Shown: piece after piece, positions 47,332 to 58,293 of the stretch
How positions within the stretch are numbered: the first letter of the stretch is position 1
Layout of the letters: every line of letters starts with the position of its first letter
Assembly (NCBI RefSeq): GCF_010470675.1
Contig: NZ_VOIQ01000001.1
Location: forward strand, 124,001 to 188,000
DNA length: 64,000 nucleotides
Direction: 5' to 3'
DNA from: Desulfovibrio sp. JC010
Lineage (GTDB): Bacteria; Desulfobacterota; Desulfovibrionia; Desulfovibrionales; Desulfovibrionaceae
Notes under the pieces: generated by a model
Told to the model about the DNA's origin: nothing
Seen by the model: only the letters and a program-made list of their open reading frames with translations
Databases searched by the model: none
Translations under genes and position numbers: made by a program

Positions 47332-48168
47332 TTAATGACTATCAATCTTGGGCCTTTTGCGCTCATTGGGAACTTCAAAAACCAGTGTAGCGGTCTTCTT
47401 TTCCTGCAGAAAATCAGGGCTGTCCTTGATGGGCTTCTTCTTGGTAAAGAAACGCACGAACCAGCGTCCGCTTACGTCGATGGGCAGCTTGATCTTTCCA
47501 TCATAAATTTTCTCGCGTTGGATATACATATCTTCGGCCTGAGTGGAGAACCCCATGTAGGTGGCGTCCCAGTAGCCGTCCCCCTTGTATGGTTTGCCGT
47601 CCATGTAGACCTGCATTTCAAGCACATCTCCTTTCTTGAGCATGGATACATCCCTGGCCGGAACCAGCTCCATGGGCATACCTACTATTGCCGGGAAAAC
47701 GGCAGAAGGATTTTCGCAGACCACGTAAGTCTTGGTCCACTGGCTGCTGCGCAGGCTGGATACAATCTTTGAAGCCCGGTCCGCAACGCTGCTCATGGGT
47801 TTGATGGAATGACGCTTGCGGTCTTTCTTGTCCATCCAGGTAGTGAAATGACCGGGATTGGTGGCTGCGGTAAGAACATATGTTCCGGGCATATCATAAT
47901 TGATTACATAGGAATGCAGCGATTTCTCATCGCGGAGTTTCACATCGTAGCTGTTGGAATCGGGTTTGATGACAGTCACGTGGTTGAGCTTCTTCATACG
48001 TACAGCATCATCCACCGGAATATGATGCCCGTAGCAGAAAAAGAGCGGGGAATTCTTACCTTCGGAAACATGATAACGCCCGGCCTGAATATACAGGGAG
48101 TGGGCCGACGCCACCGCAGGCAAGAATACGGCCAAAGCCATAAAGAGAGAGAACATTTTTTTAAGCAT
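47332..48168 (-). CDS. DUF4198 periplasmic protein
   Basis: Protein of 278 residues with a signal peptide cleaved near ASAHS, which exposes an N-terminal His, as is usual in this family. The DUF4198 pattern is visible: HSLYIQAGRY, FFCYGHHIPVDD, then a beta-rich domain ending with DVSGRWFVRFFT. Such proteins are linked to periplasmic metal (nickel, cobalt, iron) handling. A Fur-like sequence lies upstream at 48220-48238. The gene stands alone. Confidence 0.8.
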   Translation of the reverse strand: MLKKMFSLFMALAVFLPAVASAHSLYIQAGRYHVSEGKNSPLFFCYGHHIPVDDAVRMKKLNHVTVIKPDSNSYDVKLRDEKSLHSYVINYDMPGTYVLTAATNPGHFTTWMDKKDRKRHSIKPMSSVADRASKIVSSLRSSQWTKTYVVCENPSAVFPAIVGMPMELVPARDVSMLKKGDVLEMQVYMDGKPYKGDGYWDATYMGFSTQAEDMYIQREKIYDGKIKLPIDVSGRWFVRFFTKKKPIKDSPDFLQEKKTATLVFEVPNERKRPKIDSH

Positions 48169-48219
48169 CTGGTGATCCTTTTATGTCGTTACAATTAGTT
48201 GAGGGTTACGAGAGGTAAC

Positions 48220-48238
48220 GAAATTCGTTTTCATTTTC
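48220..48238 (-). promoter_or_regulatory. weak Fur-like box upstream of DUF4198 gene
   Basis: Reverse strand GAAAATGAAAACGAATTTC agrees with the Fur consensus at about 11 of 19 positions, 52 bp before the start. Suggestive only. Confidence 0.35.
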
Positions 48239-48281
48239 AAGCAATTCCGATTTATTTATATTTTGGCAATAAAACTTCAAC

Positions 48282-49259
48282 TTACTCCATTCTGCTGAAA
48301 CGAGTGCGGTATTCGCGAGGACTCAGCCCGGTCATGCTCTTAAATAAACGCCGAAACGACGAGGGGTTGTCGTAGCCTACACGGGCTGTAATTTCTTCCA
48401 CGCCTTTGGAACTTACTTCCAGCAGATGACGGGCAGCCTCAATGCGTAATTGCTGAAGATAATTATTGGGAGTCATGCCCGTGGCTTTCTTGAAACGGCG
48501 CAGGAATGTGCGTTCACCAAGGCCCGCCTTTTCAGCAAATATCCGTGTGGATGCCGGAAGATGGTAATTTTCCTGCATCCATTCCTGCACCCGGCCAATC
48601 TCTTTATCTGTAAAACTGCTCTCTTCGGTCTTATTGTCGAACATGAAATAAGGAGTCTGCACATCACGGGTGGAATCCATGACCAATATTTTTGCACAAT
48701 CAGCAGCCACTTCACGCCCCATAAACCGGGCCACAATATGCAAAGCCAAATCCTGCCAGGCCATAGCCCCCCCGGCACAGATATAACCTCCGCCGTCAAT
48801 GAGCATGCGCCGGGGCTGCAAATCCACCTCCGCAAAACGGGCGGAAAAATCCGGGGCCAGCTTCCAATGGGTGGTGGCCGGCTTACCGTCCAGCAGACCG
48901 GCCCGGGCCACAAGAAATGATCCGGCACAGGCTGAAGCAAGAATGGTCCCCTGCCCTTCCAGTTCCGCAATGCGTGCGATGAACGGCTCATTCTCCAGCA
49001 ATACATCTATGGGGCCGAAAACCGGAGGAATGACCAGAATGTCTGGCCGGATATCCATAATACTCCCGCACACCTGCAAGGGAATCCCCACATATCCGCT
49101 GATATTTTTCCCGTCCGGGCTGACAATCTTCAGCCCGGCAAACAAATCCTTAGCAGAGGATTCCGAGGTGAGGGTATTGGCAATGCTAAAAATCTCCAGC
49201 ACCCCGGAGACAGCACTGACCAGACAATCATCATAGGCTAAGACTGCAACGTTTTTCAT
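48282..49259 (-). CDS. GlxA-type regulator (DJ-1/PfpI-like plus AraC domain)
   Basis: Protein of 325 residues. The N-terminal class I amidotransferase-like domain (1-200) has the elbow ASACAGSFLVA (Cys 111) and GGYICAGGAMA. The C-terminal AraC domain has two helix-turn-helix motifs: STRIFAEKAGLGERTFLRRF (about 233-252) and GVEEITARVGYDNPSSFRRLF (about 283-303). GlxA proteins regulate nitrogen, quaternary amine or stress genes. It is divergent to the isochorismatase-fold gene, a likely target. Confidence 0.92.
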   Translation of the reverse strand: MKNVAVLAYDDCLVSAVSGVLEIFSIANTLTSESSAKDLFAGLKIVSPDGKNISGYVGIPLQVCGSIMDIRPDILVIPPVFGPIDVLLENEPFIARIAELEGQGTILASACAGSFLVARAGLLDGKPATTHWKLAPDFSARFAEVDLQPRRMLIDGGGYICAGGAMAWQDLALHIVARFMGREVAADCAKILVMDSTRDVQTPYFMFDNKTEESSFTDKEIGRVQEWMQENYHLPASTRIFAEKAGLGERTFLRRFKKATGMTPNNYLQQLRIEAARHLLEVSSKGVEEITARVGYDNPSSFRRLFKSMTGLSPREYRTRFSRME

Positions 49260-49372
49260 CTGCGCATTGTCATTTACAGCACGCTTATTGTCAATATCGC
49301 CACTTAAAAATCAGTCTGATTCTGCCAGAATGAGCTCAACTTAAACACAAAACCTCAACAAGGAGCATAAAA

Positions 49373-49918
49373 ATGGGCAAGAGAGCATTGATCATCATCG
49401 ACATCCAGAACGACTATTTCCCCGGTGGTAAATTCACCCTTGAGAACAGCGAGCAGGCCGGGGCAAAGGCCGCACAGGTCCTTGAGTTTTTCAGGAAAAC
49501 CGGACAGCCGGTAATCCATATCCAACACATTTCCGTACGGGAAGGCTCTTTCTTTTTCCTGCCGAAAACCGCAGGGGTTAAAATCCATGACTGCGTAGAG
49601 CCGCTTGAAACTGAAACCGTGATCCTTAAAAACTTCCCCAACAGCTTCCGGGAAACCTCACTTCAGGGCGAACTGCAAAAACTGGACGTGGATGAACTGG
49701 TCATCTGCGGCATGATGAGCAACATGTGCGTGGACGCCACCACCCGCGCTGCTGCAGATATGGGATACAAATGCACAGTAGTGCATGATGCATGCTGCGG
49801 TGCAGCCCTTGAGTTCGACGGGGTTAAAGCCGGGTCCGCAGAAGTCCATGCCGGATTTATGGCTTCGCTGGGGATGTTTTATGCGCAGATGATCAGCGCG
49901 GAAGATCTGCTCGGCTAA
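49373..49918 (+). CDS. isochorismatase-family cysteine hydrolase
   Basis: Protein of 181 residues with the cysteine-hydrolase triad Asp 10 (IIIDIQNDYF), Lys 86 (VILKNFPNSF) and Cys 119 (MMSNMCVDATTR). The family includes nicotinamidase, isochorismatase and N-carbamoyl hydrolases. The zinc-binding D-x-H of nicotinamidase is not evident, so the substrate stays open. AAGGAGCATAAAA precedes the ATG. The last four bases overlap the convergent exporter gene. Confidence 0.88.
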   Translation: MGKRALIIIDIQNDYFPGGKFTLENSEQAGAKAAQVLEFFRKTGQPVIHIQHISVREGSFFFLPKTAGVKIHDCVEPLETETVILKNFPNSFRETSLQGELQKLDVDELVICGMMSNMCVDATTRAAADMGYKCTVVHDACCGAALEFDGVKAGSAEVHAGFMASLGMFYAQMISAEDLLG

Positions 49919-50847
49919 CGCACATTCTGAACCCGGATGTAAAGCACCAGCCCGAGCATGGTCAGCCCAATGCCGGACCAGCCCAGCATGCCGGGCAACG
50001 CTCCGTGCAAAAGGACCACCTCTCCGGCCAAAGAAAAAAGCACTTCCATGGATTGGGTGCAATCTGCCGCGGCCAGTTCTGCCGCGCTCCGGGCCTTGTG
50101 CCGGGCGTAAAGAAACAGGCTGGTCGCGGCAATGCCTGAAAACACAGCCACCAACGCGGTATTGAGAATTTGACCGGACTGCGGAAGCGGAGGTTGGGTA
50201 AAGAGGATCAGCCCGACCCACAGCGGCAGGGAACCGAGGGTCAGCAGCAGCACGCGACAGAAGGGATCATCCATGGCCGGATCATCCAGAGCGGGGATGC
50301 GTCCGCTGCCGCCGTTACGGGCTTCCCAGACCAACTGATTGCCGAAAGGATAGGCAAAGGCGGCGGCAAAGACCGGGACAGCCCCCAGAAGCACCGCGTT
50401 CCACGAACTGTCTTCCACGCTCTCCAGATTTACCAGCAGCACCCCGGCAAAGATGATTAAAGTCAGCAATATGGCCCGCAAAGGCACTTTTTTGCCGAAT
50501 CCCAGCAGCACCAGCGGAGTGGCCAGAATGGTTGTCTGCCATGTGGCGGCCACCACCCAGCCGGGGGTATAGGATGCGCTGAAGGTGATCAGGGCATAGA
50601 AAACCCCGAACCCGACACCGCCCGCAAGAGTCCAGAATTTCAAGTGCTTCAGGTAAAGCCTGAATGAACCTGCCAGCAGATTGCGGCGAAAAATCCCCAG
50701 CCCGGCAAAAAGAAAAATCAGCATCCAGAAATAGCGCAGACTGGCCGACCATACCCAATGCCCGCCCTCTAAACTCATGGCCCGGTTGAGCACAAAAGTG
50801 GAACTGAAAAACAAAGCGGCCAGAACGCCGGTCAGGATGATCTTCAT
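49915..50847 (-). CDS. DMT-superfamily transporter (multidrug-type, EamA-like)
   Basis: Integral membrane protein of 310 residues with about ten hydrophobic helices in two related halves, as in EamA-type exporters. The start MKIILTGVLAALFFSSTFVLNRAM is typical, and the second half carries FSGIAATSLFLYARHKARS. The central loop (about 190-215) is longer and more acidic than usual. ATG at 50847 with GGAGAG upstream. The substrate is unknown. The glycosyltransferase gene ends up to 18 bp upstream on the same strand. Confidence 0.82.
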   Translation of the reverse strand: MKIILTGVLAALFFSSTFVLNRAMSLEGGHWVWSASLRYFWMLIFLFAGLGIFRRNLLAGSFRLYLKHLKFWTLAGGVGFGVFYALITFSASYTPGWVVAATWQTTILATPLVLLGFGKKVPLRAILLTLIIFAGVLLVNLESVEDSSWNAVLLGAVPVFAAAFAYPFGNQLVWEARNGGSGRIPALDDPAMDDPFCRVLLLTLGSLPLWVGLILFTQPPLPQSGQILNTALVAVFSGIAATSLFLYARHKARSAAELAAADCTQSMEVLFSLAGEVVLLHGALPGMLGWSGIGLTMLGLVLYIRVQNVR

Positions 50848-50864
50848 CAAACTCTCCAATCTCT

Positions 50865-51692
50865 TTATTTACATCCCGCCGCTCTGATCACATCAGACAA
50901 TTTGAGAAGTTCATCGGCAGTGGGAATATAGCCGCGCTGGAATGAAGGAGCATGTACGCGCCTGCGGAAATAATCCTGCGCCCACTGGACTACCGCCGGA
51001 TTAAAAAATCCGGGATTATTCAAAACAATGTACGCCTTGCCCGCGCCATCCTCTTTTTCCGCCTGATGGGAAAAATTGGATTCATGGATATGGTGGATAT
51101 ATAGAGGCTGGGCAATATGTTTAAATTTTCCCCCGGCCATCAAACATTGCACCCAGTAGTCCCAATCTTCGTAAGTCGTATTTTCCCGGTAACGGACCCC
51201 GGTATCCCATAATTCCCTGCGATACAGCGCACAGGGGGCAACGGTATTCTGGGTCCGCAGCTGGACCGGATTAAAATCAGGCAGAAAACGGTTGAATGAT
51301 TTATCCGGGGTGGTTTCAAGATAATCTGAATAAGACACTGAAAACTTGGGATTCGATTCCAGAACATCAACATGTGTTTCCAGAAACTCCGGCAGCAATT
51401 CATCATCGGGATCAAGGCTGAGCAGATATTTACCGGCCGCTTTTGCCAGCCCCGTGTTACGAACCGGGCCGGGCCTGCCGGTTCTGGGCGGGGTCAGAAT
51501 TTCAAAACTTCGGCACGCAAGTTTAGCTGCCCATTTCCGGGCCTGTTCAAGGGAATCATCACTGCTGCCGTCATCCACAAAAATTATTTCCACGTCTTTC
51601 AGCGACATGGTCTGACCTGCAAGAGAGCCGTAAAAACGGTCGGCAAATCGTCCGTAATTGTAATTGGGTATGATGATGGAAATCAGGGCCAT
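50865..51692 (-). CDS. family 2 glycosyltransferase
   Basis: GT-A fold transferase of 275 residues. ISIIIPNYNYGRF (about 4-16), EIIFVDDGSSDDS (about 36-48) and LLSLDPDDELLPEF (about 88-101, the D-x-D-like metal motif) are clear, with ENTTYEDWDYW (about 166-176) as the acceptor-side ED-W motif. The start at 51692 is favoured because the family signature begins there; the frame is open further upstream without a ribosome site. A role in surface polysaccharide or protein glycosylation is likely. Confidence 0.88.
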   Translation of the reverse strand: MALISIIIPNYNYGRFADRFYGSLAGQTMSLKDVEIIFVDDGSSDDSLEQARKWAAKLACRSFEILTPPRTGRPGPVRNTGLAKAAGKYLLSLDPDDELLPEFLETHVDVLESNPKFSVSYSDYLETTPDKSFNRFLPDFNPVQLRTQNTVAPCALYRRELWDTGVRYRENTTYEDWDYWVQCLMAGGKFKHIAQPLYIHHIHESNFSHQAEKEDGAGKAYIVLNNPGFFNPAVVQWAQDYFRRRVHAPSFQRGYIPTADELLKLSDVIRAAGCK

Positions 51693-51838
51693 GAGATGAG
51701 AAGTACACCACACAGCCATAACAACGCAAGCAGTCCGGCACAAGCATAGACAAATCAAGCATATTTAATTGCTAAGAATAGCACATTCATATAAAGACAC
51801 AAATAACAGAAGCAACATATTAACCCCCTACTTATAAA

Positions 51839-52771
51839 ATGCCAAAATTTTCATACTTAGTTAATAGATTAAATATTGTTGATTTGGATCTTCTTGAACA
51901 TAGTGGATCAAAACGAATTAGGACAGATGAAGATATAATCAAAATCCTTGGGTTAAGTGCGCAAGAACTCTACGACTCCCCACAAAAAGCAAAGAAAAAC
52001 AAATATGTTTGGTCAATTCGTGATGTCAAACATTTTCCGAGTGGGGTAGCTGCAATGTCTGAAATTGTGCTATTTAAACTGATAAAATCATTAACTGAAA
52101 AGGAAGGCGTGATCGTTACCCGAAACACAACAGAAGAAGGGATTTCTAGAACTCACCCACCTTCAGCTGATGCGATCGCACATATTATTGTGCATATGGG
52201 GAGGCATTTGGTTGCAATTGAAAATGTTCATCAAATCACAAATTCAGATGCATGGAAAACAAACTTCTATAACATCTCCAATAAAGCATCTACCAACAAT
52301 GGATATTGTTCCTATTTAGACTTTGAAGATAAACCTAGTGCCGATGAAATTTTTAAAGAATTTTCATTATTTGAGAAAATTACTAGACTTAAAATTGCCT
52401 TACGTCTCCCTAATCCAGAATGGAATATGGCAACAAAGGCATTGTATGAGAAGCTAAAAAAAGGAAACATCCGTGAGTATATGCAAGACATGAAAAGTCC
52501 TACGGGCCTTTCAAAAGAAATAACAGAACTTCCATACGCCAGCCTCGCAATGGCACAGCTAGGATACAAAGATGGAACTGTAACCCTTGAAGGGGTTAAA
52601 GACGGTAAGCTTGATAAAAAAATAACAGGTGCAAAGGCCGAGATTCGACACATTGACATGGAAAAATCTCTTACATCAAGTATGCTGAATTCTACTGGGA
52701 ATAGCCAACTTAGAGCTGTTCAGGCTATTTGTGAAAACCTTGAACAGGTAGACAATGAAAACAACAAATAA
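51839..52771 (+). CDS. AT-rich cassette, soluble protein (unknown, possible defence component)
   Basis: Not recognised. The 310-residue soluble protein has codon use unlike its neighbours (many ATA, AGA, TTA and AAA codons). It is mixed alpha/beta, with IIVHMGRHLVAIENVHQI and DAWKTNFYNIS in the middle, a charged helical region (about 200-235) and IRHIDMEKSLTSSML near the end. No catalytic motif was found. It overlaps a small multi-TM gene by 17 bases. Soluble-plus-small-membrane pairs of this size and order occur in lambda RexA-RexB and, in reverse order, Kiwa, but no sequence kinship is claimed. TATAAA lies at 51790-51795; no Shine-Dalgarno sequence. Confidence 0.75.
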   Translation: MPKFSYLVNRLNIVDLDLLEHSGSKRIRTDEDIIKILGLSAQELYDSPQKAKKNKYVWSIRDVKHFPSGVAAMSEIVLFKLIKSLTEKEGVIVTRNTTEEGISRTHPPSADAIAHIIVHMGRHLVAIENVHQITNSDAWKTNFYNISNKASTNNGYCSYLDFEDKPSADEIFKEFSLFEKITRLKIALRLPNPEWNMATKALYEKLKKGNIREYMQDMKSPTGLSKEITELPYASLAMAQLGYKDGTVTLEGVKDGKLDKKITGAKAEIRHIDMEKSLTSSMLNSTGNSQLRAVQAICENLEQVDNENNK

Positions 52772-53243
52772 AATAAGAACATACTTAAGCTCTTTAGTAC
52801 TTAGTATGCTCATAACATTTATAGCCATTAAATTTGGACTTGCTGCTTTAGTAATAAAATTCATTAAAAACAATACAATTCAATCCTCAATTTTCTGTGC
52901 ATCATTCCTCGCAGTCAACCTAACTATATACTATAAAACTATTGAGAAAATAAAATCTGGAGATTTTGCACAATGGCTCCGCTACAATAATGCACTGAGT
53001 TACATGCTAAATTCTTCATGGTTTCCAACTCTACCAACTTTAGCGTCTCTCATCTTAATCATATGTCTTCCATCTACAGCCACAACTGAATTCTTAGAAA
53101 TGACTACAATCTTTTTTATATCCTACTCCCTAGTTGAAACATTTACGTCAATCACGAACTTATCAGAGTTAATAAATTTAGAAGTCGCATTTACTACTGA
53201 GTTAAAAAAAGAAAAAAATATAACCTCCCAACACGAAAAATAA
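52755..53243 (+). CDS. AT-rich cassette, small multi-TM protein
   Basis: Protein of 162 residues with about four hydrophobic segments: about 10-30 (SLVLSMLITFIAIKFGLAAL), 40-57 (SSIFCASFLAVNLTIYY), 90-108 (PTLPTLASLILIICLP) and 112-130 (LEMTTIFFISYSLVETF). The loop between the second and third is basic/amphipathic (EKIKSGDFAQWLRYNNAL) and the tail is Lys/Glu-rich. Length and topology resemble RexB-type or KwaA-type membrane partners. Its ATG lies in the end of the upstream gene with AGGTAGAC before it. Confidence 0.75.
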   Translation: MKTTNKIRTYLSSLVLSMLITFIAIKFGLAALVIKFIKNNTIQSSIFCASFLAVNLTIYYKTIEKIKSGDFAQWLRYNNALSYMLNSSWFPTLPTLASLILIICLPSTATTEFLEMTTIFFISYSLVETFTSITNLSELINLEVAFTTELKKEKNITSQHEK

Positions 53244-53277
53244 ATAAAATTTAAAGAAAGACTCAAAACCAGAAAAC

Positions 53278-54378
53278 TTACTTGAATAACTTTAAATACT
53301 CACCGTAGCCTTGAGCCTCCAGTTCTTCCAGCGGGATGAACCGCAGAGCGGCGGAATTAATGCAGTAACGCAGCCCTGTAGGCTGCGGGCCGTCTTCAAA
53401 GACATGCCCGAGATGAGAATCGGCCTTACGGGAGCGGACTTCGATTCGGGCCATAAAAAAGGAACGGTCTTCCTTTTCAACCACTCCCTGCCCTTCAATG
53501 GGCCGGGTAAAGCTAGGCCAGCCCGTGCCGGAGTCAAACTTATCGCGCGAACTGAAAAGCGGCTCCCCGGAAACAACATCCACATAAATGCCCTCGCGAT
53601 GGTTATCCCAGAAATCGTTATTAAAAGCAGGCTCAGTGCCGTCTTCACGGACCACCTTGAACTGCAGCGGGGTCAGAGTCTCGCGTAGCGCAGCATCATC
53701 CGGGCGCGTGTAATCATCCCTCCCGCCGGAAGGAGGGGCTATATCCTGCTTTTTTTCAGCCCAATGCTCCTCCACAAAAGAATCCCTGCCGGACATGAAG
53801 CGGTACCAATTGTAACGCACAGGATTCTTCCTGTAGTAATCCTGATGATATTCCTCGGCCCGGTAAAACTTCGCAAAGGGGATCAGCTTTGTTGCCAGCG
53901 GCTGATCAAAAACACCGGACCCGTCAATTTCCAGCAGGACTTCCCCGGCTATCTTCTTCTGCTCTTGGTCATGATAAAAGATTGCCGAGGTATATTGTTC
54001 GCCGCGGTCATTGAACGAACCACCGGGGTCAGTGGGGTCATGATGCTTCATGAAAACCAGCAGCATTTCCCTGTAGCTTATTTTTTGAGGATCATAACGG
54101 ACCTGCACCACCTCAAGATGACCGGATTTTCCAGTGCTGACCCGCTCGTAAGTGGGATTCTCCACATGGCCGCCCGAGTAGCCGGAAACAACTTCGAGAA
54201 CTCCGTCCTCTTTTTCAAGGTCCGACTCTACACACCAGAAGCATCCCCCGGCCACAGTTGCGGTTTCAAAATTCTCAACTTTATTTTGCATCGTAATTTC
54301 TCCATTATTCGCGATTGCCAAAGCATGCCCGGTGAACATCACCAATATTAAGAATAAAAACGGCATCAATTTATTCAT
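53278..54378 (-). CDS. msrAB: bifunctional methionine sulfoxide reductase MsrA-MsrB
   Basis: Repairs both S- and R-methionine sulfoxide. The 366-residue protein has a signal peptide (about 1-22, GHALAIANN), so it acts in the periplasm. The MsrA domain has GCFWC (Cys 46, Cys 49) and [10 protein letters not shown]. The MsrB domain has [20 protein letters not shown] and the catalytic [11 protein letters not shown]. It lacks the zinc cysteines of many MsrB and has Thr in the S-G-x-G-W-P-S-F place where the Neisseria PilB-type enzyme has its recycling Cys. A thioredoxin domain is absent. Confidence 0.94.
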
Positions 54379-54395
54379 AAAAACACCTTACTTTA

Positions 54396-54408
54396 AATAA
54401 TTATCATT
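54396..54408 (-). promoter_or_regulatory. Fur-like box upstream of msrAB
   Basis: Reverse strand AATGATAATTATT matches 12 of 13 positions of the central Fur consensus AATGATAATCATT, 18 bp before the msrAB start. It would link oxidative repair to iron status. Confidence 0.5.
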
Positions 54409-54446
54409 ACTACTAAATAAAAATAAATTAGCTAAAGTCAATCGCT

Positions 54447-54479
54447 AAAAAAACAAAAACGCAGTCCCGAAGGACTGCG
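54447..54479 (-). terminator. intrinsic terminator after the D-Ala-D-Ala dipeptidase gene
   Basis: Reverse strand CGCAGTCC, loop TTCG, GGACTGCG, then TTTTTG and seven T. Confidence 0.9.
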
Positions 54480-54506
54480 CTGATCAAAGACACATTCTAA
54501 TCCCGG

Positions 54507-55202
54507 CTATTTTACCGGAAAATTGAAATATGTATCCGGGTATGGCTCATACTGAAGAGTAAAATGCCACCACTCTTCTTTAAGGGGCCTGAAGCCGTTG
54601 CGAACCATTGTTTCCCGCAACAAAGCGCGATTGGCGCGCACCTGTATGCCCATCTCTTTATTGGCAGGCCATGATTTAGGACCGAAATAATCAAAGCCCG
54701 TACCCATATCAAGTTCCTGCCCGGTCTTGAGGTCAATAATAGTCAGGTCCACGGTGGACCCTCTGGAATGCCCGGACTTTTCCGCAATATATCCATCCCG
54801 GAAAAGATTCTTTTTCTGCACATCAGGGTAGTAGCGGGCTTTCATGCGGGTATCATCCAGATCCTTTGCCCAGCGCACAAAATGGAGAACAGCATCCTGC
54901 GGTCGGTAGCCGTCAAAAATTTTGAGTCCCAGCCCGAAAGGCGCAAGGTCCTTTTGGACCCCGGCAAGGGCGGCAGCCGCATCGCGGCTCAGGATGATGC
55001 GCGGAACATGATAGCCGTCAATACGTTCACCGACAAAATTATCCGTCCCGAAATAGCGCACATCATAAACCGCTCCCGGAATAATCCGGTCCAGATAACA
55101 GAAATCCGCAGGCAAATTGTCTTCCCCGCAAAAAGCAGGAAATACTGACGCAAAAAATAATAACAAACTGGAACAGAAAATCATAATTTTCCTGATACGC
55201 AT
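54507..55202 (-). CDS. D-alanyl-D-alanine dipeptidase (VanX/DdpX family)
   Basis: Periplasmic zinc peptidase of 231 residues with a signal peptide (about 1-25, FPAFCGEDN). The metal/catalytic signature S-G-H-S-R-G-S-T-V-D (143-152) gives His 145 and Asp 152, and KEEWWHF gives Glu 210 and His 213. GYRPQDAV (about 98-105) carries the substrate arginine. Export fits a role in recycling cell-wall D-Ala-D-Ala (DdpX-like) rather than cytosolic VanX-type glycopeptide resistance. Confidence 0.9.
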   Translation of the reverse strand: MRIRKIMIFCSSLLLFFASVFPAFCGEDNLPADFCYLDRIIPGAVYDVRYFGTDNFVGERIDGYHVPRIILSRDAAAALAGVQKDLAPFGLGLKIFDGYRPQDAVLHFVRWAKDLDDTRMKARYYPDVQKKNLFRDGYIAEKSGHSRGSTVDLTIIDLKTGQELDMGTGFDYFGPKSWPANKEMGIQVRANRALLRETMVRNGFRPLKEEWWHFTLQYEPYPDTYFNFPVK

Positions 55203-55331
55203 GGAGCCTCCGCAAGATTAATCAATCCACACAACATGCAATGCAACTGATAAAACCAAAATAAATTGCGATATATTTAAATAGAAGATATTCATATTTA
55301 ATGGACTTGACCACATAAAAAACAAACAATT

Positions 55332-56354
55332 ATGCCAGAATCAAGATTCTTTCATACTTACACCTGCCGCACAACTATCATCAGATTTTCTGCTGCCCTT
55401 TTTCTGGTAGCATATTTACTGTGTTCCCCTGCGATAGGCCATGCCCAAAAAACAATCGTGGTCATCCCCAAAGCGACAATCCTTAATTTCTGGAAAATAC
55501 TCTGTGTCGGCGCGCATGACGCTATCAAGGGCCAAGACATCAATCTCATCTGGCGCGGCCCAAGAGTGGAAAACAAATCCAAAGCACAGCAACACCTGCT
55601 GAAGTTCTACACTGACAAAAAGGTAGAAGCCATTGTCATAGCTCCGGCAGATAAAGAAAAACTTAATCAGGATATTGAAGAAGCCGTACAAGCAGGCATC
55701 AAGGTAGTGATAATAGACTCCCCGGTAACTACAACAGCCCCCCAGACCTATATTGCAACAGACAATTACAAGGCCGGGGAACTTGGTGCCCAAATGCTGG
55801 CAGGAAAAATAAAGAGCACAGGTCCCATACTACTCATTGGTCATACCCCGGAAAACGGAGCTTCATTTTTACGGGAAAAGGGCTTTATCGACAGGATTAA
55901 TGAACTCTTACCGGGACAGTCCGTGATCAGGCTGCACATGGAAAACGGCAGCGAAAGGGAAACAAGAATCGCTGCGGGGGAAATTCTAAATGCCCTGCCC
56001 TCCATTGCCGGTATATTCGCAGTGAATGAACCGACATCAGACGGTGTACTCCATGTGCTCAGTAAACACCCGGATATCAGCATTCCTTTTATCGCTTTTG
56101 ACAATAACAAAAATCTGGTTCAGGGAATAAAAGACGGCAAAGTAAGTGGACTGATCGCCCAAAAACCGTATGCATTGGGTTTCTTTGGGGTTAACGCAGC
56201 CATTGACCTGATAGACGGGAAAAAAGTTGGTAGAACCATGGAAAGTCCGGTTACCGTAATAACTCAGGACAACGTTAACATATCCAGCACATTAAAATGC
56301 CTGCAAAAAATGACCGAAAGAGAAAAAGCGGTCTGCCCCATCTGCTTCAATTAA
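55332..56354 (+). CDS. orphan periplasmic sugar-type binding protein
   Basis: Type I periplasmic binding protein of 340 residues, with a signal peptide (about 18-38, cleavage near GHAQK). Segments VEAIVIAPADKEKLN, AGIKVVIIDSPV, TDNYKAGELGAQML and IFAVNEPTSDGVLHVL are typical of ribose/AI-2-type binders. No ABC permease or ATPase gene is near, so it may feed a signalling protein or an unlinked transporter. The C-terminus ends in CPICF, adding two cysteines to one at C-L-Q-K. No lipobox is present. Confidence 0.85.
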   Translation: MPESRFFHTYTCRTTIIRFSAALFLVAYLLCSPAIGHAQKTIVVIPKATILNFWKILCVGAHDAIKGQDINLIWRGPRVENKSKAQQHLLKFYTDKKVEAIVIAPADKEKLNQDIEEAVQAGIKVVIIDSPVTTTAPQTYIATDNYKAGELGAQMLAGKIKSTGPILLIGHTPENGASFLREKGFIDRINELLPGQSVIRLHMENGSERETRIAAGEILNALPSIAGIFAVNEPTSDGVLHVLSKHPDISIPFIAFDNNKNLVQGIKDGKVSGLIAQKPYALGFFGVNAAIDLIDGKKVGRTMESPVTVITQDNVNISSTLKCLQKMTEREKAVCPICFN

Positions 56355-56408
56355 AAAAAAGACTGACAAATAAGCCAGCCTTCAATTCTCAACCTATTGC
56401 TTTATTAA

Positions 56409-56771
56409 TTAACCGCCGAACCAACCGGGAGCCAGTACCTCCATGGCCTTGGTGTAATGCACGCGCAGATCTTCCAGCTTACCGGAAATAACTTTCTCCT
56501 GCTCACCCAGACTGGTGGGGCAGATTTCCTGCATCTGGGCAACAACCGCTTCAAGCTCTTTCATGGTGGACTTGAGCATCACGATCTGGTCTTTGAGAGT
56601 TTCAGATTTGTCGTCAGCCAGAACATCATAAAGCCGGGCTTTCCATGAATTAAGCTCCATTTCCAAACCTTTGCAATAATGGTTAACGGCCTGCTTCTTT
56701 GCTTCTTCTGTGCTGCAACCGTCAATACCGACACAACTGGGGCACGGGCCCGGATAATCCATATTCGCCAT
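56409..56771 (-). CDS. small helical protein with N-terminal Cys motif, unknown
   Basis: Not recognised. The 120-residue protein starts MANMDYPGPCPSCVGIDGCS, where C10-x2-C13-x5-C19 could bind a metal or form a disulfide. The rest is a long coiled-coil region (ELNSWKARLYDVLADDKSET, DQIVMLKSTMKELEAVVAQM). The ATG at 56771 is preceded by GGAGG. It is a single gene with no clear partner. Confidence 0.75.
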   Translation of the reverse strand: MANMDYPGPCPSCVGIDGCSTEEAKKQAVNHYCKGLEMELNSWKARLYDVLADDKSETLKDQIVMLKSTMKELEAVVAQMQEICPTSLGEQEKVISGKLEDLRVHYTKAMEVLAPGWFGG

Positions 56772-56952
56772 GATAAACCTCCAAAAAATAGATTTATAGG
56801 ACCTTTTCAGTATAGCACTCAATATCGCTTTAGGCATTGTTTTTTTAAAAAAATACAAACCCCGATAAAACTTCATGGTTCCAGACTATTGCAGCACAAA
56901 AAAGAGCACCCACTTACTTCTCTTTACAGGAAAGGGATTGCCGCTTTGCTGT

Positions 56953-58293
56953 TCAAGACCATTTTTTAATGTAGGCATCGACATCAAATTTGCGGCGGCA
57001 GCCCCGCTCATTCATATAGCGGATTGACCCGAACACGGGCCGCTTCTTCCAGCCCCTATCATGCAGTCCGGCCACGGACCAGAGCGACCCCGCATAGCCG
57101 TTGGGATCACGTCCATCCAACTGGTAACGGTCATTCAGGGTAATGATTATACGCAGTGCATCCTCAGGCGTTGGCGACCATTCCAGAATCTTCTTGGCCC
57201 AATACATGCGCATGTATCCGTGCATATATCCGGACTTGAGCAATTGCTGCTGGGCCGCATTCCAGAGGGCGGAATGAGTGCGTCCCTGTTCAAATTCGGT
57301 ATAGAAATACAAATAATCACGGCGGTCTGCAGCATGTTCCGTCAATGTTTTCAACGCCCACTGGGGAGCTGCATGTAACGAATCATAATCAGGGGTGTGC
57401 AAACAGAAATTCTCCGCCAGTTCGCGGCGGACGATCAATTCTTCAAGATATGAATCGACAGACTCACCTGCCTCACATTGTGCCACGGCAAGAGCCGCCC
57501 GCTGCGGGGCCAGCTGCCCGAAATGATAATAAGCTGAAAGCCGGGAAGTTGCTTCCGCATTGGGGTCGTTGCGTTCCTGCCCATATCTTTCCAGCCTGCT
57601 ACTCACAAAAAAATCCAAAGCAGCACGGGCCGCAGACTCGCCGGGAATCAAGTCCACCGGAGCGACGCTTTCATCCACATCGATCCACCGGCGCACCTCT
57701 TTCCAATCCACAGCAGGAAATTCATCGCTTCTACTCTGTGCAGGGAGAAGCTCCGGAAACTCTTCCAGAAATTCAGGAAGCAACCTGTGAATTTTCGGCC
57801 TGATGGTCCGTGCTGAATACTCACATTTATCAGTGGCAAAACGGGCCGGAACAACATTGTGCCCGTCCACTTCAATCAGCGGGACATCGATTTCACTGGC
57901 TACAGCCTTCTGCCATTGCTGCTTTATACGCAGAGGATCAAAGTCCGTGACTACGGCTCCGGCCCCGGTTTTGCGCACAAAACCGGGCAGGACTTCATCT
58001 GCCGCACCGCCCAAAAGAGCAAACGAATACCCTAAGCTACGAAGATCCCGCTCAACCTCTGCAAGCCCTTTAAGCATGAACTCATACTGGCGCAACGTCG
58101 CACCTATAAATGTCGGCACGAGACAGAAAACTACAATCAGCGGGCACTTATCACCGGCCAATTCACGGGCATGAAGCAACCCTCAATTGTCGCGGACACG
58201 CTGTTCGCGGCTCATCCAGTAAATTACCGGACCTGATGATTGCTCCTCCTCGTTCAGTTGCTTGATCCTTCTGAGGTCAACCTTGATCACCAT
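56953..58293 (-). pseudogene. phr: class II CPD photolyase interrupted by an in-frame TGA
   Basis: Reads as class II cyclobutane pyrimidine dimer photolyase from ATG 58293: VIYWMSREQRVRDN, then TGA at codon 37 (58185-58183), then GLLHARELAGDKCPLIVVF in the same frame. Class II enzymes have DNWALL here, so the stop replaces a conserved Trp; TGG to TGA is one base. Downstream the FAD-binding region (RRELAENFCLHTPDYDSLHA, YMHGYMRMYWAKKILEW, NDRYQLDGRDPNGYAG) is intact up to codon 446. An internal TTG at 58179 could restart translation. It overlaps the SDR gene end, in an operon with ybgA. Confidence 0.85.

Follow-up and report, generated by a model that had tools for sequence, protein, structure and literature searches.

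Between a glycosyltransferase gene and msrAB, the 64-kb stretch of DNA analysed here (the window) carries two overlapping genes, P1 and P2, which the initial annotation had singled out as a defence-like cassette with the layout of lambda RexA-RexB or, in reverse order, of Kiwa. We asked whether the pair was acquired as a unit, whether its products have relatives, and what kind of system the two genes might encode.

A gene pair of foreign composition

The reading frames for proteins of 310 and 162 residues lie where the initial annotation had placed them; both are intact, and they overlap by 17 bp (Table 1). Its description of a sharply deviant base composition and codon use was borne out as well. 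The G+C content of 51839-53243 is 34.7%, compared with 50.5% for the window (z -4.5, non-overlapping 1405-bp pieces), and the lowest value in any stretch of equal length away from the cassette is 42.9% (scan starts outside 50400-54700). Among 56 non-overlapping window ORFs, with P1 and P2 included, GC3 averages 0.577 (sd 0.074); P1 (0.30) and P2 (0.28) have the two lowest values, along with the two largest codon-usage distances.

No hydrophobic segment was seen in P1, in agreement with its earlier description as soluble, and its single-sequence structure model was poor (pLDDT 31). For P2, Kyte-Doolittle analysis gave two hydrophobic segments at a strict cutoff and three at a looser one, and the single-sequence model was all-helical at low confidence (pLDDT 52), such that the "about four" membrane helices first suggested are plausible. 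As had been remarked, no Shine-Dalgarno motif was seen upstream of P1; promoter-like sites at the cassette were no more than expected by chance, and no Rfam match reached the gathering score in 48000-57500. Pfam identified the flanking genes as a family-2 glycosyltransferase and msrAB, and no tRNA was found in the 64-kb window; on these points the original account of the neighbourhood stands. No defence gene was noticed in the immediate flanks of the cassette.

Table 1. Coordinates in the window of the cassette, its genes and the adjoining terminator remnant
Feature	Position	Strand	Remarks
Whole inserted cassette	51740..53277	.	Left boundary approximate; right boundary marked by renewed homology to the sisters at the msrAB stop codon
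Remaining arm of the ancestral msrAB intrinsic terminator	51726..51738	-	Other arm replaced by the insertion
P1	51839..52771	+	310 aa, soluble; remotely related to DUF4747 proteins; suggested sensor/trigger (RexA-like role)
Best-matched part of P1	52337..52606	+	Residues about 167-256; contains the four columns of alignment A1 that never vary (P, N, G, G)
P2	52755..53243	+	162 aa, small membrane protein; suggested to act as membrane effector (RexB-like role)

Insertion of the cassette into the msrAB terminator

The presence/absence comparison suggested for this locus was carried out with 16 other genomes of the same genus. For P1, no match below E 0.57 was obtained in any of them. The glycosyltransferase gene was found in all 16, and in 15 it stands directly beside msrAB without the P1-P2 cassette; in the remaining genome (G002), msrAB was absent from the 10 kb fetched around the glycosyltransferase gene. 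The gap between the two genes measures about 0.05-0.23 kb in 14 of these 15 genomes.

In the nearest sisters (L025, L027-L030), the gap folds into a strong intrinsic terminator hairpin behind msrAB. The window retains one readable arm of this hairpin. The other has given way to the cassette, and the sequence matches the sisters again at the msrAB stop codon (53278); the cassette therefore entered the msrAB terminator. No terminator-like site is left in 51640-53400. A search for target-site duplications and terminal repeats found no direct repeat joining the two junctions, and the one long inverted repeat (51741-51769 paired with 51868-51896) is confined to the left end; no flanking repeats that would name the insertion mechanism were seen.

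In the fifteenth of these genomes (G011, L031 2952-3744), the same gap carries a different overlapping pair, in which an ORF of 83 aa is coupled with a DUF2335 membrane protein (Pfam E 4e-16); its G+C content is equal to that of its flanks. Small cassettes may land repeatedly in the glycosyltransferase-msrAB gap.

P1 as a remote relative of DUF4747 proteins

The annotation had assigned P1 to no recognised family, and direct searches agreed: neither P1 nor P2 had a credible match in Pfam, PADLOC, PHROGs or NCBIfam (E ≤ 10) or any sequence match in the PDB. The Pfam families DUF3349 (E 0.028) and xRRM (E 0.053) were set aside, both being under their own cut-offs, as were two weak PHROGs matches (E 0.17 and 7.1). 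No credible relative of P1 was found in plasmids and phages by tblastn, or in genome_contigs and viral_contigs by pattern scans, where absence is weak evidence since only close relatives are within reach. Nor was one found in 57 relatives, 347 other genomes of the order or 394 other genomes sampled from the phylum, and three genomes of another class gave nothing convincing; these genome sets overlap, and the whole-genome searches covered the window's own phylum. For P2, the search of plasmids, phages and viral contigs likewise gave nothing convincing.

Further P1 matches at E 0.007-1 appeared in the 57 relatives, the 347 order genomes and the three genomes of the other class. No second P1-like protein was found in the order, where one further match (E 0.007) lay inside a 1509-aa frame; L090 (E 0.007) was left outside the counts. 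After realignment or inspection, a Bacillus plasmid repeat protein and stretches of an Erwinia phage and a Vibrio phage were rejected as chance, as were ORFs in G448, G468 and G672, which by eye resemble other families. Loci L061-L064 were used only as control sequence.

The family to which P1 could be related is DUF4747 (PF15931). The Pfam model itself, with a cut-off of 27 bits, does not match P1 at E ≤ 10. It was found in 8 of 348 genomes of the order (P1, which it misses, not being counted), and two more members, L079 and L080, came from a phylum sample of 395 by way of the A1 profile, which contains P1; both are DUF4747 proteins by Pfam alone. We built the test profiles from DUF4747 proteins without P1, and the 8-member version without L079 and L080 as well. 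Against the 8-, 10-, 11- and 14-member profiles, P1 scored 19.4, 17.1, 22.0 and 21.0 bits, respectively, corresponding for one comparison to E 1.4e-7 with the 10-member profile and E 8.5e-9 with the 14-member HMM. With the 10-member profile, none of 1000 shuffles reached the score of P1 (best 8.6 bits), and P1 ranked first among 680 sequences (P1, P2 and 678 control ORFs, some of them overlapping copies because their loci had been retrieved twice), with 4.6 bits for the runner-up.

Comparison by hhalign with the 14 members gave Prob 75 and p 2.5e-5 for P1 115-257 on model positions 122-259; the best p among controls was 0.009 for 150 ORFs of 212 and 0.015 for 100 shuffles. The hmmsearch domain covers P1 167-255 on model 157-243. 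The match is collinear and spans four columns that are invariant in A1, and identity to the first row of that alignment is 16%. True DUF4747 members score far higher, 169-301 bits in leave-one-out comparisons, and for this reason P1 is, at the level of sequence profiles, a remote relative outside the family proper. The earlier statement that it belongs to no recognised family thus holds for the Pfam DUF4747 model and gives way where the profiles of local relatives are concerned. No solved structure credibly matched the DUF4747+P1 profile, the best being a PPR protein (E 0.049).

DUF4747 genes with small membrane-protein partners

We examined 14 DUF4747 genes (10 genomic, 2 from plasmids, 2 from viral contigs), and each of the 14 has, immediately downstream, a gene encoding a membrane protein of 160-211 aa with at least two strong hydrophobic segments. 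The distances between the paired genes range from -52 to +13 bp, compared with -17 bp for P1-P2, in which P2 likewise lies directly downstream. Repeats of loci already used (L078, L083-L089) were dropped before counting, and so were three viral loci: L102, whose contig is as long as that of the G675 locus and which was taken to be identical with it, and L105 and L106 (match figures as for L104). Eight of the partners scanned had no Pfam family above the cut-off.

All 10 genomic pairs have a G+C content below that of their flanks, by 0.10 to 0.29 in nine of them; the values for the L095 pair are 41.8% and 71.2%. As seen in L070-L080 and L091-L100, DUF4747 and membrane-protein genes recur as two-gene islands of low G+C, several of them with no mobility gene recognised nearby (crude ORF calls). 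For one cassette (L096), homology to two sisters stops 121 bp short of the cassette and is not regained in the 1.5 kb beyond it.

The neighbourhoods of the genomic pairs are mixed. A type I restriction system (hsdR, hsdM, hsdS) ends 47 bp before the start of one pair (L099 2860-9483), a second pair neighbours Mu-type phage genes and a third neighbours phage-type genes; beside the other 7 of 10, no defence or phage gene was recognised by the crude ORF calls, and for two of these seven, one flank is an ordinary gene by Pfam. A plasmid copy from Acinetobacter adjoins a RelE-type toxin-antitoxin pair. PADLOC recognised none of the four genomic pairs (of 10) that were scanned.

P1-P2 agrees with the DUF4747 pairs in the lengths of the two proteins, the order of their genes, the overlap or abutment of these and a G+C content below the flanks, and the sequence relation of the first protein is remote but collinear. 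It differs in that P1 falls far outside the family proper (about 21 versus 169-301 bits) and P2 is no recognisable member of the partner family. Against the partner HMM, P2 scored -2.3 bits, with 928 of 1000 shuffles equal or better and reversed P2 scoring as well or better; hhalign gave 0.2%.

A candidate RexAB-type abortive-infection cassette

Gene pairs of comparable make-up have been described in phages. In the Gordonia phage CarolAnn (gp44/gp43) and the mycobacteriophage Sbash (gp30/gp31), the first protein weakly resembles DUF4747 by HHpred and is paired with a four-helix membrane protein; the pairs act in phage defence, and an ion-channel mechanism has been proposed for them. For CarolAnn and lambda, the second protein has been proposed as the toxic partner, the first being harmless alone. 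Butters gp30/gp31 is also a defence pair that includes a four-helix membrane protein, and in it the HHpred match of gp30 to DUF4747 is weaker still (probability 69, E 140; PMC7542560). Only five RexAB-like systems, barely alike in sequence, had been described as of January 2026, according to PMC12894663; the membrane protein is the effector in all except Butters, and a RexAB-type pair of P. putida (RexABpp) was recognisable only via profile and structure comparison (PMC12894663). In addition, 17 "DUF4747/CarolAnn" operons are located behind capK-capS, among other immune operons (PMC13373217). Judged by title and the opening of the abstract, none of the papers retrieved for DUF4747 describes the pair studied here.

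Like P1-P2, CarolAnn and Sbash have a soluble first gene and a small membrane second gene, with an overlap of 26 bp in CarolAnn; however, their first protein is about 370 aa, the pairs are prophage-borne, and in our comparisons neither P1 nor P2 resembled the CarolAnn proteins in sequence. Lambda RexA-RexB (279 and 144 aa) shares the order, sizes and soluble-plus-membrane make-up, whereas P1-P2 does not adjoin a cI-type repressor. At E ≤ 10, P1 did not match RexA (PF15969) and P2 did not match RexB (PF15968). Pairwise and profile comparisons were also negative, so direct RexA membership of P1 was rejected, and P2 had no sequence match to CarolAnn gp43. Because neither RexA nor CarolAnn gp44 matched the DUF4747 profile in our own comparisons, the link between DUF4747 and RexAB depends on the published HHpred matches, which are weak. 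What survives of the likeness to Rex first remarked upon is the remote relation of P1 to DUF4747, along with the weak DUF4747 resemblance of published RexAB-type first proteins; kinship with lambda RexA is unsupported. The initial annotation had itself cautioned that kinship to Rex or Kiwa is not visible by sequence, and comparisons with RexA, RexB, KwaA and KwaB were indeed all negative.

P1-P2 is a real, acquired cassette and, on our best reading, a strongly diverged form of a type of system that is known but little described. We lean towards a RexAB-type phage defence that works by abortive infection and whose two genes arrived by horizontal transfer. Of the defence-like acquired cassette proposed at the outset, acquisition is supported by the insertion and the empty sites, and a role in defence is suggested by the published relatives. 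By analogy with these, P1 would sense a product of infection, either a phage protein or a DNA-protein complex, and would contact and act on or activate P2. As a small inner-membrane protein, presumably translated from the overlapping start codon, P2 would then permeabilise or depolarise the membrane; growth would stop before phage is made, and the infection would abort.

The main rival to this assignment reverses the roles. P1 would be a toxic cytosolic effector, as in a toxin-antitoxin or addiction pair, and P2 a membrane anchor that silences it until infection. Butters sets the precedent, with a RexA-like effector that is sequestered by the membrane protein (PMC12894663; PMC7542560), and the overlapping genes and small-cassette layout fit such an arrangement equally. 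We consider it unlikely, however, given that Butters is the exception among the five described RexAB-like systems (PMC12894663) and that P1 had no credible match to any family in the four libraries.

The cassette might instead serve no defence function, being a recently acquired orphan with another role, in stress or the envelope, or junk that is being lost. Such a reading would accommodate the absence of a close relative from every collection searched, the lack of a visible ribosome-binding site for P1, promoter-like sites not above chance and the seven genomic DUF4747 pairs with no recognised defence or phage neighbour. It is decidedly unlikely in view of the intact, overlapping frames and of the DUF4747 relation and family context, which point to defence.

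A Kiwa-like mode, in which the membrane protein senses injection and a KwaB-like P1 binds phage DNA, is highly improbable, and the comparison with Kiwa was dropped: similar sizes and the soluble-plus-membrane make-up are its only points of agreement (Kiwa as in PMC12904381), whereas the order is reversed relative to KwaA-KwaB (Kiwa order and sizes as given in the initial annotation), neither P1 nor P2 matched KwaA or KwaB (PF16162) in Pfam or PADLOC at E ≤ 10, and the genome itself has no KwaB by PF16162, a search that matched no control genome either.

Returning to the RexAB-type reading, we entertain as a tentative extension, on which we would not rely, that P1-P2 founds a separate subfamily, combining a highly diverged DUF4747-like sensor with an unrelated membrane effector. 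If so, the sensor and membrane modules would have been exchanged independently, and such systems would spread as bare 1.4-kb cassettes without a mobility gene, landing in intergenic terminator sites. P1-P2 was beyond the reach of four family libraries, and its link to the DUF4747 type emerged only from profiles of local relatives. This suggests a route to more members of a long-known type of abortive infection, namely a DUF4747-like gene with a small membrane-protein gene directly behind it and low G+C. The locus also provides a clean empty-site comparison for the entry of small cassettes into chromosomes.

Observations on the flanking genes

The msrAB terminator appears to have been destroyed by the insertion (51726-51738, 53244-53277), and msrAB transcription may consequently continue across P2 and P1, antisense to both, and on into the glycosyltransferase gene. 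The glycosyltransferase ORF as listed (50865-51758) has the start codon TTG. Matches in sister genomes start at residue 20-23 in 12 of 16 genomes and at residues 1, 2, 6 and 13 in the other four; since most begin at 20-23, the listed start may be some 20 codons too early, and the real one probably lies near 51695.
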